Below, piece after piece: positions 28,343 to 34,369 of a stretch of 35,108 nucleotides of DNA. Position 1 is the first letter of the stretch. Each line of letters begins with the position of its first letter. Both the position numbers and the translations under genes were made by a program. Source of the DNA: a virus; IMG/VR virus record IMGVR_UViG_3300044568_000301, positions 1 to 35,108 of that record; one strand, given 5' to 3'. The notes beneath the pieces are model-generated. The model worked only from the letters and a program-made list of their open reading frames with translations. It did no database searches and was not told where the DNA came from.

Positions 28343-28510
28343 TCATTCGCGCTTGGGCATCCGTTTCATGGCTTCGGCCAGCTTCTTGCCTTTGTCGGCT
28401 TGGTTGAAGTCCTTGGCTACGCTCTGCGGGATGCCTACACGTTGCGCGAAAGCCGGGTCGTGTGCGGCGGCAGCCATAAAACGGCGCTGCTTATCAGATG
28501 TGCTGGGCAT
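28343..28510 (-). CDS. Small conserved basic phage protein, 55 aa
   Basis: From the ATG at 28510 the product reads MPSTSDKQRRFMAAAAHDPA, FAQRVGIPQSVAKDFNQAD, and KGKKLAEAMKRMPKRE. The S-x-KQ-x-x-FMAA start and VGIPQSVAKDF block are a small family found in many phages near terminase, with no known function. It is basic and helical. Its ATG overlaps the stop of the GIY-YIG gene (TAATG). It is separated from the terminase small subunit by 41 bases with no clear signal. Confidence 0.7.
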   Translation of the reverse strand: MPSTSDKQRRFMAAAAHDPAFAQRVGIPQSVAKDFNQADKGKKLAEAMKRMPKRE

Positions 28511-29124
28511 TACGACACCTTTACAAATTTTCCGTTGATCAATTTCGTGCCGATTCGTCGTTCGGCAATGGATTGTCGGGCTTCTAATGACATCGGTGGG
28601 CGTTTTGGGCGATTCAATGCGATTTGCCGCATACGCTCCTTGAACTCGTCTGATCTTTTTTTGCCACGCAATTTTATTGCGGCTAATGCGTAGGATTCCG
28701 CAGTTCGTTTAATTGGGCCACGCCGTTTGGCTGCTTCGCTCATGCGTTGTCGCGCTTCTAAGGTGTTTCGCTTACCTAATCTTGCGCGCCCAATGTTTCG
28801 TTTATGTTCTTCGGATTTAGGAAGCAGTCCGACATTGTTTGCCACAGGGTTGATGTTGTACCCCTTGGCGGTCAATTCAGCCTCATCTAACAGAAACTGT
28901 TCTAATTCCAACATTTCCGCTTTACATGGCAAATTGGCTATTAATTGGAACGTGAAAGCGTTAGCGCCGTATTTATTCCATGCGTTTTGCAGCTTTGCTG
29001 AATGATGGCTGTTGCTTTCTAACAACTTTATGTGTTGTCCATGTCGGCGCTCAAGATCAATCGTTGAACCGACATAACGCTTGTCGTTCGCCTTATTACG
29101 AATTTCGTAAACGGCAAAATCCAT
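28510..29124 (-). CDS. GIY-YIG homing endonuclease with NUMOD3-like repeats, 204 aa
   Basis: The GIY-YIG core is YEIRNKANDKRYVGST at about 6-21, followed by the conserved basic RHGQH and a later Glu in LELEQFLLDE with GYNINP. A DNA-binding C-terminus has NUMOD3-like units (SEEHKRNIGRARLGK, LEARQRMSEAAKR). Such free-standing genes cut DNA that lacks them and copy themselves by repair. I chose the ATG at 29124; an upstream start at 29163 would overlap the previous gene. It sits in the early part of the leftward operon between a DUF5856-like gene and the packaging genes. No ribosome binding site is clear. Confidence 0.87.
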   Translation of the reverse strand: MDFAVYEIRNKANDKRYVGSTIDLERRHGQHIKLLESNSHHSAKLQNAWNKYGANAFTFQLIANLPCKAEMLELEQFLLDEAELTAKGYNINPVANNVGLLPKSEEHKRNIGRARLGKRNTLEARQRMSEAAKRRGPIKRTAESYALAAIKLRGKKRSDEFKERMRQIALNRPKRPPMSLEARQSIAERRIGTKLINGKFVKVS

Positions 29125-29125
29125 G

Positions 29126-29494
29126 TCAACTAAGCTGTTCAAGCTTATATAGCGTAGACGCAATCAACCCCACGATCTCGTCGTGGATGTTCTGCAAGTC
29201 GGGTTCGTCGGGTAACTGGTCGCGCATGCTCTTGGCAAAGTCCAGCAAGCCGCTGACGTAAGCCTTGGCGTCCTTCTGCACCTTGAAGTCGTCGATGTAG
29301 GCGGTCATCGGGATGATGCCGAAATGCCCCTGATACGCCTCGGCGTACTTGTCGGCAAGGTCAAGGATGTCGTCGTAATACCCGCCCAGCGCCTTATGTT
29401 CCGCGTAGGACTTGGTGGACAAGTGCAGGAAATGGGTAATAGTGCTGCTGTGAAGCAGGGCTGAAACGAAGATTCCGGCTTGTTGATGTTTCAT
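29126..29494 (-). CDS. DUF5856-like protein, 122 aa
   Basis: The protein has HFLHLSTKSYAEHKALGGYYDDILDLADKYAEAYQG, the signature I recall for DUF5856, followed by FGIIPMTAYIDDF and a helical C-terminus ending LIASTLYKLEQLS. The His/Glu spacing around helix pairs (H-x6-Y-x2-H-x4-Y) resembles ferritin/Dps-like helical bundles, so it may bind a metal, but the match is from memory. It is in the early part of the leftward operon and ends one base before the homing endonuclease start. Confidence 0.7.
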   Translation of the reverse strand: MKHQQAGIFVSALLHSSTITHFLHLSTKSYAEHKALGGYYDDILDLADKYAEAYQGHFGIIPMTAYIDDFKVQKDAKAYVSGLLDFAKSMRDQLPDEPDLQNIHDEIVGLIASTLYKLEQLS

Positions 29495-29911: not shown

Positions 29912-30271
29912 TTATTGGCTTTCTTTAGCGTTGGTACGCGCACGTTCTCTCAACCTCAATACACCTTTCTCGCCAAACAACTCTCTGACTAACCCAATAA
30001 CGCCCGGATCGGTCAGTACGTCAGATGCCCCGATTTCGCGGATCAATTCGCCAACGCGAATCTTAATCTTCTCCCGCTCGCCCGCGTCTCCCGAAAACGC
30101 GGTGCGAGCCAGCAACGCATCGTAATACCGCAGACGGTTCAGCGGGCTGTTACGCACGGCTTCATCCCAACCGGAAACACTACGCTCTACCGCTCGCGCC
30201 ACTCGCTCGTCCGGCAGTCCCTTCGGGCCGGACTTCGCGGCGCTCGGTAAATAACCGTGTTCGTCACCCAT
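29912..30271 (-). CDS. Unknown charged protein, 119 aa
   Basis: I chose the ATG at 30271, overlapping the preceding TGA by one base (TGATG); the frame could also begin with a GTG three bases upstream. The product has KSGPKGLPDERVARAVERS, then SPLNRLRYYDALLARTAF and ELIREIGASDVLTDPGV, mostly helical and basic. I do not recognise a family. It lies between a DUF1376-type gene and the VRR-NUC gene, and so is probably part of the replication set. A role as loader or partner of the DUF1376 protein is possible. Confidence 0.58.
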   Translation of the reverse strand: MGDEHGYLPSAAKSGPKGLPDERVARAVERSVSGWDEAVRNSPLNRLRYYDALLARTAFSGDAGEREKIKIRVGELIREIGASDVLTDPGVIGLVRELFGEKGVLRLRERARTNAKESQ

Positions 30272-30717
30272 CACTCAACCCTCCGACCAACAACGCTCAA
30301 CACAGCGGCGGTGCTAACTTTGGCAATACCAATCGGCTTCTGGTTATTGGTTATTGGATTATGGTTATTGGTTAGCATACCGTTTGCATTGCGTTCGCTA
30401 TGCGTTCGCATCCATCTTTGTTGGGCGCTCTGTTTAGCTTTTGCCTGTTTTTCCTGCACTTTTTCCATTTCCTTCATCGCCCGAGCATTGACGTAACCGG
30501 ACGCAGTAAGAATAAAAAAATCGTTTAGGATGCGACGGATTCTGTCTCGTTCCCTTCCGTTGATTGGGCGGCAAAGCTGCATAGCTTCACGCTCGCCAAA
30601 CGGTTTTTCGGTAGCGTAAAAGCGATCTAACAAAAGGGTATAAACGCCATGCTCGTAGGTGGTGAGATGGCCGGTATCTCGGGCGTAATCCCCGAGATGA
30701 CGAGTGTAAAAAAGCAT
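30271..30717 (-). CDS. DUF1376 (YdaU-like) replication protein, 148 aa
   Basis: The N-terminus YTRHLGDYARDTGHLTTYEHGVYTLLLDRFYATEKPF is the DUF1376 signature, found in phage and prophage proteins that sit where the lambda O replication gene does. The C-terminal half is a Lys/Gln-rich linker (VQEKQAKAKQSAQQR) and a simple tail. Many DUF1376 proteins are longer with a second C-terminal region, which is absent here. GGAG lies six bases upstream of the ATG. It is the first gene of the leftward operon, immediately downstream of a nested inverted repeat, in a place suited to an initiator that acts on a nearby origin. Confidence 0.78.
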   Translation of the reverse strand: MLFYTRHLGDYARDTGHLTTYEHGVYTLLLDRFYATEKPFGEREAMQLCRPINGRERDRIRRILNDFFILTASGYVNARAMKEMEKVQEKQAKAKQSAQQRWMRTHSERNANGMLTNNHNPITNNQKPIGIAKVSTAAVLSVVGRRVE

Positions 30718-30743
30718 ATTGTCTCCGCACAGTTAAAAACCAT

Positions 30744-30792
30744 GCGTAGCGGTTGACAGGTTAAGTGTTCCCCCCTTAACCTTCCGCTACGC
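30744..30792. repeat. Nested inverted repeat in the control region
   Basis: The outer arms GCGTAGCGG (30744-30752) and CCGCTACGC (30784-30792) match perfectly over 9 bp. The inner arms AGGTTAAG (30758-30765) and CTTAACCT (30775-30782) match over 8 bp around a loop TGTTCCCCC. Five bases on the left and one on the right separate the two stems. It lies just upstream of the DUF1376 gene and outside any reading frame I accept. It could be an origin element, an operator or an RNA leader structure. Confidence 0.72.
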
Positions 30793-30813
30793 TCTGCAAC
30801 CTCGAAAGCGTAT

Positions 30814-30829
30814 GGCAGCCCCCCCTGCC
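30814..30829. repeat. Short hairpin with C-rich loop
   Basis: GGCAG (30814-30818) pairs with CTGCC (30825-30829) around six C bases. It adds to the group of palindromes in this non-coding stretch between the DUF1376 gene and the Cro-like gene. No T run follows on either strand, so it is not a good terminator on its own. Confidence 0.4.
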
Positions 30830-30834
30830 GCGTC

Positions 30835-30854
30835 AACCCCCTTAATCGGGGGTT
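30835..30854. terminator. Possible terminator hairpin between the leftward operon and the Cro-like gene
   Basis: AACCCCC (30835-30841) pairs with GGGGGTT (30848-30854) over 7 bp with loop TTAATC. On the plus strand it is followed by only a broken T run (TGTCGTTT), and on the minus strand by none. It lies just past the end of the Cro-like gene and could terminate or attenuate its transcript. I cannot separate this from a structural role. Confidence 0.4.
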
Positions 30855-30881
30855 TGTCGTTTCTGGGTTCCGTAGAACGCA

Positions 30882-31049
30882 TTAGCGCCCCTGTGGGGGC
30901 TTTACCTGCCCAGCCTTGAGCTGCCACGCCCGAGCCGCTGGGATCGCCCCAGCTTTAACCCATTGGCTAACAGCACCTTTCGTGACGCCAAATGCCTCGG
31001 CTAACGCCTGCTGGCTACCGTATCGCTTAATAAGCTTCTGAATGTCCAT
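30882..31049 (-). CDS. Cro-like HTH repressor, 55 aa
   Basis: From the ATG at 31049 the protein reads MDIQKLIKRYGSQQALAEAF, GVTKGAVSQWVKAGAIPAAR, then AWQLKAG. This is the lambda Cro/YdaS-type helix-turn-helix, with the turn Gly in AEAFGVTKGAVSQW. It is the only gene in the divergent region and is read leftward, so it would bind and control the two flanking promoters. A TATATT lies about nine bases upstream of the ATG without a ribosome binding site, suggesting a leaderless transcript, as for lambda cI from PRM. It was missed by a 60-aa cut-off. No CI-type second repressor or integrase was found. Confidence 0.85.
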   Translation of the reverse strand: MDIQKLIKRYGSQQALAEAFGVTKGAVSQWVKAGAIPAARAWQLKAGQVKPPQGR

Positions 31050-31776: not shown

Positions 31777-31894
31777 TGACCTGACTTGGTGGCATCACCA
31801 AGACGAAATGATGCAGCAGCTTGAAGAACAAGAACGCATTGAAGCCTGTAACCGGGCAATAGACGAACTGAAAGGAGAAGAAGATGCAGAGTGA
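31766..31894 (+). CDS. Small acidic helical protein, 42 aa
   Basis: I chose the ATG at 31766, with GAGGAG about nine bases upstream, over an upstream start at 31703 that would overlap the peptide gene almost completely. The product has MHDDDLTWWHHQDEMMQQLEEQ then IDELKGEEDAE, an acidic helix. It overlaps the Erf gene start by 11 bases. No family is recognised. It may be a small partner of the recombination proteins that follow it. Confidence 0.55.
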   Translation: MHDDDLTWWHHQDEMMQQLEEQERIEACNRAIDELKGEEDAE

Positions 31895-32528
31895 AACCAT
31901 TGGCGCATTGGCCGCCGCGTTAAGCAAAGCCCAAGCCGACATCACGGGTGCGCTGAAAGACAGTAGCAACCCGTTCTTTAAAAGCAAGTACGCCGATCTA
32001 GCGTCGTGTTGGGATGCCTGCCGTAAGCAGCTCGCTGCAAACGGTTTGTCGGTAATACAGACCACGCAGATGACCGAGCAGGGCTTGATGCTCGTCACCA
32101 CGCTTGCTCATTCCAGCGGTGAGTGGATCGCAGGGCAGATGCCCGTGCTGACCAAGGACAACAGCCCACAGGGTCAGGGCAGCGGCATTACCTACGCCCG
32201 TCGCTACGCCCTCGCCGCCATCGTGGGGCTGGCACAGATTGACGACGACGCCGAGGCTGCACAGGGTCGAGCGTTCACCAACGACCCGCGTGGCGATCTG
32301 GGCAAGAAGGTTGACCAGACCAAGCGTGACCAGTTTGTGCAGCAGTTCCGTGGTGCGTTCGATTTAGACGCCGAGGAAAAGGACATCGCCCTTGCGGTGA
32401 TGGCCGTACATGAAGCATTGAACCCAGACCATGACCTTTACATTGCCGTCGCAGACGTACTGACAGCAAAGGAACGGTCAGCAATCAAGAAGTACATTCA
32501 AATGGCAAAGGAGCAGAACCGTGGATAA
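31884..32528 (+). CDS. erf: Erf-family single-strand annealing protein, 214 aa
   Basis: The protein has the Erf landmarks: NPFFKSKYADLASCWDA near residue 30, then GSGITYARRYALAAIVGL and QIDDDAEAA near 105-130. Erf proteins anneal complementary single strands and circularise or repair phage DNA, as in P22. The C-terminal part is charged and helical. It is followed by an SSB-like protein and later NinB, so the group forms a recombination module. AAAGGAG lies about six bases before the ATG. The gene length is typical. Confidence 0.9.
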   Translation: MQSETIGALAAALSKAQADITGALKDSSNPFFKSKYADLASCWDACRKQLAANGLSVIQTTQMTEQGLMLVTTLAHSSGEWIAGQMPVLTKDNSPQGQGSGITYARRYALAAIVGLAQIDDDAEAAQGRAFTNDPRGDLGKKVDQTKRDQFVQQFRGAFDLDAEEKDIALAVMAVHEALNPDHDLYIAVADVLTAKERSAIKKYIQMAKEQNRG

Positions 32529-32805
32529 GTTTGACCCAAATATGCGTGGCGTATTGTTCAAGAACGAAAAGGGCGAGAACGCCAAGCGACCTGATTACCG
32601 TGGATCGTGTGTGATTAACAACATTGATTTCAACGTGTCAGGCTGGAAGAAGGTAAGCCAGAAAACGGGTGATACGTTCTTGTCGCTTAAGTTTGAAGCC
32701 AAGGGCGAGGGCAAGCTGTCCCGTACTGGCGAACCGCAGCAACAACCGACCAAGAAGCCGCAAGTGACGGAGGCTAACTGGGACGATCTGGACACCCCGT
32801 TTTGA
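32521..32805 (+). CDS. Small SSB-like protein with acidic tail, 94 aa
   Basis: The start is GTG at 32521, overlapping the end of erf by eight bases. The core DYRGSCVINNIDFNVSGWKK, then GDTFLSLKFEAKGEG, is a short beta pattern like small OB-fold proteins of phages that begin GVLFKNEKG. The end EANWDDLDTPF has the acidic D-x-D-x-P-F form of SSB C-terminal tails, which bind partner proteins. Together with its place after erf, this suggests a phage single-strand DNA-binding protein. The fold is inferred from pattern only. Confidence 0.68.
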   Translation: MDKFDPNMRGVLFKNEKGENAKRPDYRGSCVINNIDFNVSGWKKVSQKTGDTFLSLKFEAKGEGKLSRTGEPQQQPTKKPQVTEANWDDLDTPF

Positions 32806-33035: not shown

Positions 33036-33691
33036 AAGTGTTTATCGGTTGGGATAGCCGCGAGGACATTGCGTATCAGGTATGCAGAGCGTCCATCCTG
33101 CGGCACACCAGCATCCCGGTGGACATTCAGCCTGTCGTGCAGTCAGAGCTTCGGCAGCGTGGCGTGTATACCCGAGAGAGTGATCCGTTTTCGTCTACGG
33201 AGTTTTCGTTTACCCGGTTCTTGACCCCGTATCTGGCTGGATACACCGGTTGGGCGGTATTTGTGGACTGCGATTTTCTTTTCCGGGGGGACATTGCGGG
33301 ACTGATGGACTACGCCGACGGGGCAAAGGCTTGCCTTACGGTACAGCACGACTACAGGCCGAGCGAAACGGTCAAAATGGACAACAAGGCGCAGCATCTT
33401 TATCCACGTAAGAATTGGTCAAGTCTTATGTTTATCAACTGCGCCCACCCGCAAGTCAAGACGTTGACACCCGAGGTTGTAAACCGCGAAAGTGGAATGT
33501 TCTTGCACCGTTTCCAATGGTTAACGGATGACGTTATAGGCTCCTTGCCGATAGCGTGGAACTACCTTGAAGGTTGGTATACCCGTGACCATTGCCCCAA
33601 CCCTATTGCCGTTCACTACACCCGTGGCGGGCCGTGGTTTCCCAATTATCAAGATGTGGAATACGCCGAGGAATGGAAAGCGTACACATGA
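33032..33691 (+). CDS. Glycosyltransferase, GT8-like with DxD motif, 219 aa
   Basis: The protein begins MKVFIGWDSREDIAYQVCRAS, the first strand and nucleotide-sugar loop of GT-A enzymes. FVDCDFLFRGD carries the metal-binding DxD at about 83-85. Later blocks FINCAHPQVKTL and AVHYTRGGPWFPNY fit the acceptor and C-terminal metal-ligand region of GT8-type enzymes. It would move a sugar from a nucleotide-sugar to DNA, a virion protein or a host glycan. It lies between recombination genes and is coupled by ATGA to both neighbours. The acceptor is unknown. Confidence 0.8.
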   Translation: MKVFIGWDSREDIAYQVCRASILRHTSIPVDIQPVVQSELRQRGVYTRESDPFSSTEFSFTRFLTPYLAGYTGWAVFVDCDFLFRGDIAGLMDYADGAKACLTVQHDYRPSETVKMDNKAQHLYPRKNWSSLMFINCAHPQVKTLTPEVVNRESGMFLHRFQWLTDDVIGSLPIAWNYLEGWYTRDHCPNPIAVHYTRGGPWFPNYQDVEYAEEWKAYT

Positions 33692-34095
33692 AACGCATTT
33701 TCCCTGCCAACACCCCGCCTGACCAAGTAGCCACTTCGGTGCTACGCATGATGCAAGAGCTGCCCAACAAGCCGATTAGCGTAACGGTGGAGTTGTGGAA
33801 GAAACCCCGCAGCAACCAACAGAACGCTTATCTTTGGGGCGTGGTGTATCCAGCCATCATAGAGGGCGGTGGAGAAGCGTTAGGCGGATTTACCCGTGAC
33901 GATGTGCATGAGTGGATGTTGGGCGAGTGTTTTGGTTGGGAGACGCTAGAGGGCTTTGGGCGCAAACGCTTACGTCCATTACGTCGATCCTCCACGCTCA
34001 ATAAACAAGAATTCACCGATTACCTGACGTTTATAGATACCAAGTGTGCCGAGTTTGGCATCGTAATACCGGAGCCAACGTATGAACCTGCGTAA
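33688..34095 (+). CDS. ninB: NinB-type recombination protein, 135 aa
   Basis: The sequence has VTVELWKKPRSNQQNAYLWGVVYPAI, which is the NinB signature (RS-x-QQNAYLW), then GGFTRDDVHEWMLGECFG and QEFTDYLTFIDTKCAEFGI. NinB of lambda binds single-strand DNA and helps Red-type recombination, in place of host RecFOR. The ATG at 33688 overlaps the previous stop (ATGA); longer frames upstream are shadow of the glycosyltransferase. It matches the presence of Erf and the SSB-like protein. Confidence 0.88.
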   Translation: MKRIFPANTPPDQVATSVLRMMQELPNKPISVTVELWKKPRSNQQNAYLWGVVYPAIIEGGGEALGGFTRDDVHEWMLGECFGWETLEGFGRKRLRPLRRSSTLNKQEFTDYLTFIDTKCAEFGIVIPEPTYEPA

Positions 34096-34369
34096 AGAGG
34101 CCAGAGGTCGGGCGTGTACGGTGCGACTGCCCGGCATCTGCAACCACAACAGCGAGACGGTGGTGCTGGCGCATATCCGTATGCCCGGCATTTCAGGGAT
34201 GGGCATCAAGGCCCCTTCAGACCTTCTGGGCGCGTGGTCATGTAGCGCCTGCCACGACGCCATTGACCGACGCTCTAACGCCGACCTAGACCGAGACTAT
34301 GTGCGATTAGCGCACTTTGAGGGGATGGCTCGCACCATCGCCCAGTTACGCAAAGAGGGGAAGGTCTAA
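34082..34369 (+). CDS. YbcO/DUF1364-type putative nuclease, 95 aa
   Basis: The protein begins MNLRKEARGRACTVRLPGIC, then VVLAHIRMPGISGMGIKAP and GAWSCSACHDAIDRR. This is the DUF1364/YbcO pattern, with Cys12, Cys20, Cys54 and Cys57 as likely zinc ligands and His31 and His58 as candidate catalytic or metal residues. YbcO of E. coli is described as an HNH-type DNA or RNA nuclease. It overlaps ninB by 14 bases and fits recombination. Its activity here is inferred. Confidence 0.86.
   Translation: MNLRKEARGRACTVRLPGICNHNSETVVLAHIRMPGISGMGIKAPSDLLGAWSCSACHDAIDRRSNADLDRDYVRLAHFEGMARTIAQLRKEGKV

Follow-up and report, generated by a model that had tools for sequence, protein, structure and literature searches.

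Upstream of a gene for a DUF1376 protein, the window analysed here (the whole 35,108-nucleotide stretch of viral record IMGVR_UViG_3300044568_000301) carries a nested inverted repeat in non-coding DNA, and the question is what this structure does. The initial annotation had proposed a replication origin or an RNA switch. The reading favored here, with a probability of about 0.68, is that the repeat belongs to a conserved control unit of facing promoters, leader hairpins and a predicted terminated antisense small RNA, in which the antisense promoter and its RNA would hold down the replication operon. The genes and hairpins at the center of the question are as follows.

30271 to 30717, minus strand: DUF1376 gene, primosomal/replication-type protein (Pfam PF07120, E=2.3e-18; PHROG 'primosomal protein', E=3e-25)
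30727 to 30745, minus strand: hairpin P4, adjoining the DUF1376 ribosome-binding site, its first bases common to P3
30744 to 30792, minus strand: nested hairpin P3 in the DUF1376 mRNA leader, the feature under study, with an outer stem of 9 bp and an inner stem of 8 bp
30882 to 31049, minus strand: gene for a Cro/YdaS-like DNA-binding protein, upstream of DUF1376 (P22_Cro, E=4.3e-12; YdaS, E=1.1e-10)

The nested hairpin and the DUF1376 leader

Reading of the sequence confirmed both stems exactly. The outer stem pairs 30744-30752 with 30784-30792 and the inner stem pairs 30758-30765 with 30775-30782; an asymmetric 5/1 loop lies between them, in which TTGAC (30753-30757) faces a single T (30783). 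The segment is non-coding and is located between the Cro/YdaS-like and DUF1376 open reading frames (ORFs). Taken on the minus strand, it does lie directly upstream of DUF1376, as described. The DUF1376 ORF scored 66.8 bits against PF07120, above the curated cut-off of 30.1. The minimum free energy of the P3 segment was -23.3 kcal/mol on the plus strand (z = -5.37) and -24.8 kcal/mol on the minus strand (z = -5.44), and none of 200 shuffled sequences was equally stable.

DUF1376 loci in viral contigs were gathered by protein search, which found many. The upstream regions of the close relatives share one layout, the same as that of the window: a C5/G5 hairpin, TTGACG, 17 to 18 bp, TACGCT, and about 20 nt, followed by the nested hairpin, a second hairpin and the ribosome-binding site. 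A pattern consisting only of the first hairpin and TTGACGCGG was found in 68 contigs, most of them without DUF1376 behind it. The comparison set comprised, among the matches listed, 109 distinct elements after filtering, of which 20 precede DUF1376. Some of the regular expressions fixed part of what was later counted in this set, and a less biased set of 39 unique sequences was obtained with a search pattern ending at TTGACGCGG. Nearly all relatives bearing the unit are metagenome contigs, some of them near-identical, and are not independent of one another. A scan of viral contigs for the P3 pattern also gave matches away from DUF1376, which were read as chance.

Among the DUF1376 relatives, the outer stem of P3 was 98.7% paired, with double changes in six of nine pairs, and 98.6% of the P4 cells were paired. 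The covariation signal of P3 and P4 was lost in a control in which the pairing partners were slid. By alignment column the inner stem of P3 was poorly kept (61.5% paired); in 101 of the 109 relatives the minus (mRNA) strand gave its better fold, and a strand-neutral count gave 25 G-T against 4 A-C. In the elements without DUF1376, the minus-strand bias of the outer stem was the reverse of the inner stem's, with 38 A-C against 15 G-T; one mismatch fixed in a large lineage may be the cause of this A-C excess. RNAalifold found no consensus for the non-DUF1376 P3 set, the alignment of which is too diverse. The specific fold that the initial annotation had proposed is thus upheld by compensatory changes in the outer stem and by the strand preference of the inner stem, and the structural claims for this region are regarded as firm.

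These results bear on the proposed RNA switch, in which P3 and P4 would form a translational leader gating the DUF1376 ribosome-binding site, perhaps when bound by the DUF1376 protein or by a small RNA. Both hairpins are conserved on the mRNA strand, and P4 abuts the ribosome-binding site GGAG. GGAG, however, is unpaired in the minimum-energy fold, which therefore lacks the sequestered ribosome-binding site of a translational riboswitch, and in most relatives the unit precedes hundreds of non-coding bases rather than this site. A switch of this kind, which in many relatives would have no DUF1376 gene to act on, is unlikely. A loop-loop pairing between P3 and the small RNA described below, sought by eye, suited one relative and not the others and was dropped.

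Two predicted facing promoters and a predicted small RNA

Comparison of the relatives revealed, in the stretch that separates the Cro-like gene from DUF1376, the boxes of two predicted sigma-70-type promoters together with the elements of a predicted small RNA. The two promoters point toward each other, and their cores overlap.

30753 to 30758, plus strand: -35 box TTGACA of the plus promoter, its first five bases being the 5-nt bulge of P3
30777 to 30782, plus strand: -10 box TAACCT of the plus promoter, 18-bp spacer
30788 to 30812, plus strand: stem-loop SL1 at the predicted +1, TACGCT (30788-30793) with AGCGTA (30807-30812)
30789 to 30863, plus strand: predicted small RNA of about 75 nt with three stem-loops (model R1, E=3.6e-16)
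30807 to 30812, minus strand: -10 box TACGCT of the minus promoter, 18-bp spacer, predicted start at about 30800
30814 to 30829, plus strand: stem-loop SL2, GGCAG/CTGCC, its half-sites kept complementary; also a palindrome in the spacer of the minus promoter
30831 to 30836, minus strand: -35 box TTGACG of the minus promoter, from reading of the sequence and comparison of relatives
30835 to 30863, plus strand: intrinsic terminator, CCCCC/GGGGG with the tail TTTGTCGTTT, T-rich on the plus strand

The plus promoter is embedded in P3, with its -10 box in the inner stem. The importance that the initial annotation had attached to the 5/1 bulge is superseded, because the bulge holds the -35 box of this antisense promoter. 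The exact TTGACA box was present in 100 of the 109 distinct relatives, and a -10 box whose second and sixth bases are A and T (.A...T) followed at a spacer of 16 to 18 in 107; no search pattern had fixed these -10 positions. On the minus strand all 109 elements have TTGACG or TTGCGC with TA...T at 17 to 18 bp, as the filter demanded. In the 39-sequence set, GTCAA was found in every sequence, 76 to 85 nt beyond TTGACGCGG;.A...T stood at a spacer of 16 to 18 on the plus strand in 35 to 37 of the 39. On the minus strand TA...T, nearly absent at other spacings, stood at a spacer of 17 to 18 in every one of the 39. The plus -35 box is only 36 nt from the start of DUF1376, which places the antisense promoter directly upstream of the replication gene. 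An automatic promoter scan of the window called neither promoter; each -10 box agrees with the consensus at just three positions, and that consensus, of the sigma-70 type, may not be the one used by the host. That both promoters fire is an inference.

The predicted small RNA begins within P3. In 104 of the 109 relatives the 5' arm of SL1, which occurs in 13 types, starts 5 to 8 nt past the plus -10 box, compared to about 13 of 109 expected from shuffling. SL2 has about 30 types of half-site, which are nearly always complementary, with double changes in all four pairs and almost no wobble pairs on either strand. The hairpins that had been noted near 30814 and 30835 are real, the former being SL2 and the latter the terminator. 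Wobble counts of SL1 and of the terminator were not used as evidence because they come largely from single columns. The mean z of the small RNA was -4.25 versus -1.95 for its complement (105 relatives), and in a 54-sequence alignment double changes occurred in 9 of 14 pairs, a value that none of 500 shuffles reached.

The covariance model R1, in which the window's own sequence is included, gave one strong site in the window. It also gave sites antisense upstream of DUF1376 (E from 2e-6 to 2e-3) in loci L104-L107, L109, L110 and L133, which are distant (42 to 50% identity), were found by protein only and are absent from the model. When read individually, L104, L106 and L133 were seen to keep the plus promoter as TTGACC-17-TACCCT, and no minus promoter was recognizable in them. 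Six cultured DUF1376 phages yielded no clear equivalent of the small RNA with R1, and a BLAST search of the right end of the window against cultured phages gave no match over the P3 site. In genome contigs no DUF1376 relative was found; matches to the terminator pattern there are probably unrelated terminators, and the one that was opened (L405) is host-type sequence. Among Rfam families only tRNAs passed at gathering and relaxed thresholds, and weak sub-threshold matches were taken as chance. The analysis adds a family of predicted phage small RNAs that has no Rfam entry. A tRNA-Gln gene (anticodon TTG) is located at 1176-1249 on the plus strand, near the left end of the record.

The palindromes might instead be double-stranded repressor operators, that is, protein sites controlling the promoters. 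Their position within the promoter spacers and the near absence of wobble pairs from SL2 on both strands would fit this reading. The diversity of the half-sites speaks against it, as does the occurrence of an identical Cro recognition helix upstream of differing half-sites, and the inner stem of P3 is strand-biased. An operator function is improbable on this evidence; as a Cro operator in particular it was rejected, the type of palindrome not tracking the Cro recognition helix.

In the control unit proposed here, the minus promoter would drive DUF1376 and the genes behind it, and the first 70 or so bases of its transcript would fold at once, into P3 and then P4. The plus promoter would send polymerase in the opposite direction as far as the terminator, just short of the Cro-like gene, and its RNA would be complementary to any mRNA reading through from the Cro-like gene into DUF1376. 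Since the promoter cores, and with them the polymerase footprints, overlap, only one polymerase could be engaged at a time, and the two promoters would exclude each other. By analogy with pO-oop-tO of phage lambda, the plus promoter and the small RNA would hold down expression of the replication operon. What the comparison of sequences itself demonstrates is the boxes of both promoters at their spacings, the terminator, the fold of the small RNA, covariation within P3 and an unvarying location of the unit. The result is a promoter map, open to checking, of the region that controls replication in an abundant group of uncultured phages.

Sequences behind the unit and the origin question

Across the loci the upstream gene is mosaic while the control unit stays, which indicates that the unit is inherited as a block. 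Each of 13 large relative records contains exactly one copy. A structured RNA of about 220 nt comes after the leader in many of the relatives that lack DUF1376 there (for example, L137:2692-2909 on the minus strand and L154:2012-2223 on the plus strand, and many other loci). Of its 49 predicted pairs, 18 had double changes in 25 sequences, and a wider set of 33 sequences gave 143 G-U against 7 A-C on the minus strand. Its core motif was found in at least 120 viral-contig stretches, and no match was obtained in Rfam, phages or plasmids. The RNA was present in none of the loci of the 20 DUF1376 elements and in most other loci. A third kind of following sequence, non-coding and possibly structured, was observed behind the leader in L135, L183 and L201. 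Eleven records without DUF1376 behind the unit (29 to 37 kb, possibly fragments), some with the RNA and some with the third kind of sequence, gave no match to DUF1376 anywhere.

The exchange of DUF1376 for a structured RNA behind one and the same unit raises the question of how these phages start replication. It is conceivable, at a low probability, that the unit precedes a swappable replication module, either DUF1376 with its iteron-like repeats or the RNA of about 220 nt, and that the RNA may replace the initiator. If it does the job of the initiator, the origin would be RNA based and the antisense RNA of about 75 nt would be its regulator.

The persistence of P3 in front of different genes would also suit an antiterminator RNA of the put kind, placed where the long leftward operon begins, which would modify polymerase so that it passes later terminators. 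P3 and P4 lie at the predicted 5' end of a transcript as two adjacent stem-loops, like those of HK022 putL (PMC9378689). The HK022 put RNAs, however, are alike in sequence (PMC9378689), whereas the loops and stems here vary widely, a comparison made with the published description; we give this reading little credence.

With regard to the proposed origin, the following feature is the more relevant one.

30336 to 30425, minus strand: iteron-like repeats within DUF1376, of the ACGCAATGC type and the CCAATAACC type, origin candidate

A 16-mer built from CCAATAACC matched the whole window five times with up to three mismatches, compared to 0.13 expected, and four of these matches fall within the repeats. 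Similar repeat words occur at the same place in distant phages, including Methylophilaceae phage P19250A and Acinetobacter phage phiAC-1. For a Vibrio phage with 37% identity in the protein, the DNA match was confined to the repeat site (81.5% over 65 bp). By analogy with lambda O, these iteron-like repeats, conserved at the DNA level in distant phages, are preferred over 30744 as the origin candidate.

The hairpin itself might be the origin or a part of it, as an initiator-binding or single-strand initiation site. Its stems are strong, it adjoins a replication-type gene, and in some cultured phages a helicase or helicase loader is the neighbor of DUF1376. Roughly 30 ORFs checked in the window gave no polymerase, helicase or primase. 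The conserved signals at the site are the opposed promoters and the terminated small RNA, the constraint on it is accounted for by the promoters and the leader, the typical repeats are located inside DUF1376, no tandem direct repeats were apparent at 30744-30792 by reading, and GC skew had no clear turning point there; an origin at P3 is thus unsupported and very unlikely. Among the rightward genes of the window, Erf-like annealing, single-strand binding, NinB/Orf-like and HNH proteins are encoded at 31884-32805 and 33592-34369 (plus strand). A GIY-YIG homing-endonuclease-like gene is located on the minus strand at 28510-29163.

Comparison with known systems

In ColE1, the small, structured and terminated RNAI acts against a structured RNA, RNAII, at the replication control region. 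The unit described here likewise sets a small structured terminated RNA against a structured one. It differs from ColE1 in that the RNAs overlap at their 5' ends only (about 11 nt) and in that DUF1376 is a protein-coding replication gene.

HK022 putL forms a pair of adjacent stem-loops where an early phage transcript begins; putL and putR are similar in sequence to each other and act on RNA polymerase (PMC9378689). The likeness to putL is a two-stem RNA, here P3 and P4, at the start of a predicted transcript. Unlike those of put, the stems here show unrestricted covariation, and they enclose a second promoter.

The lambda oop RNA is about 77 nt long. Activity of the convergent promoter pO reduces the pR transcription that reaches the origin region, and the target of OOP RNA is cII mRNA (PMC3985674, PMC5869508). 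As in lambda pO-oop-tO, a short terminated RNA is predicted whose promoter lies close upstream of the replication initiator gene; it is directed from that gene toward the gene of a small DNA-binding regulator and is convergent with transcription of the replication operon (PMC3985674, PMC5869508). The two differ in that lambda oop overlaps the 3' end of cII, whereas the small RNA here ends at 30863, before the stop codon of the Cro-like gene at 30882, and so has no antisense overlap with the 3' end of that upstream regulator. The neighboring gene here is Cro-like rather than CII, and the antisense promoter is overlapped by an opposing one dedicated to the replication gene. The unit has the antisense-oriented promoter upstream of a replication gene and the predicted short RNA with an intrinsic terminator that are typical of oop, and the likeness seen is one of geometry and inferred action. 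The unit was not assigned to oop, homology being undemonstrated and the RNA stopping short of the gene upstream. If expression tests agree with the proposed unit, a lambda-style antisense promoter beside a replication gene would recur in sequences with no evident homology, and this recurrence would hint at a general solution.
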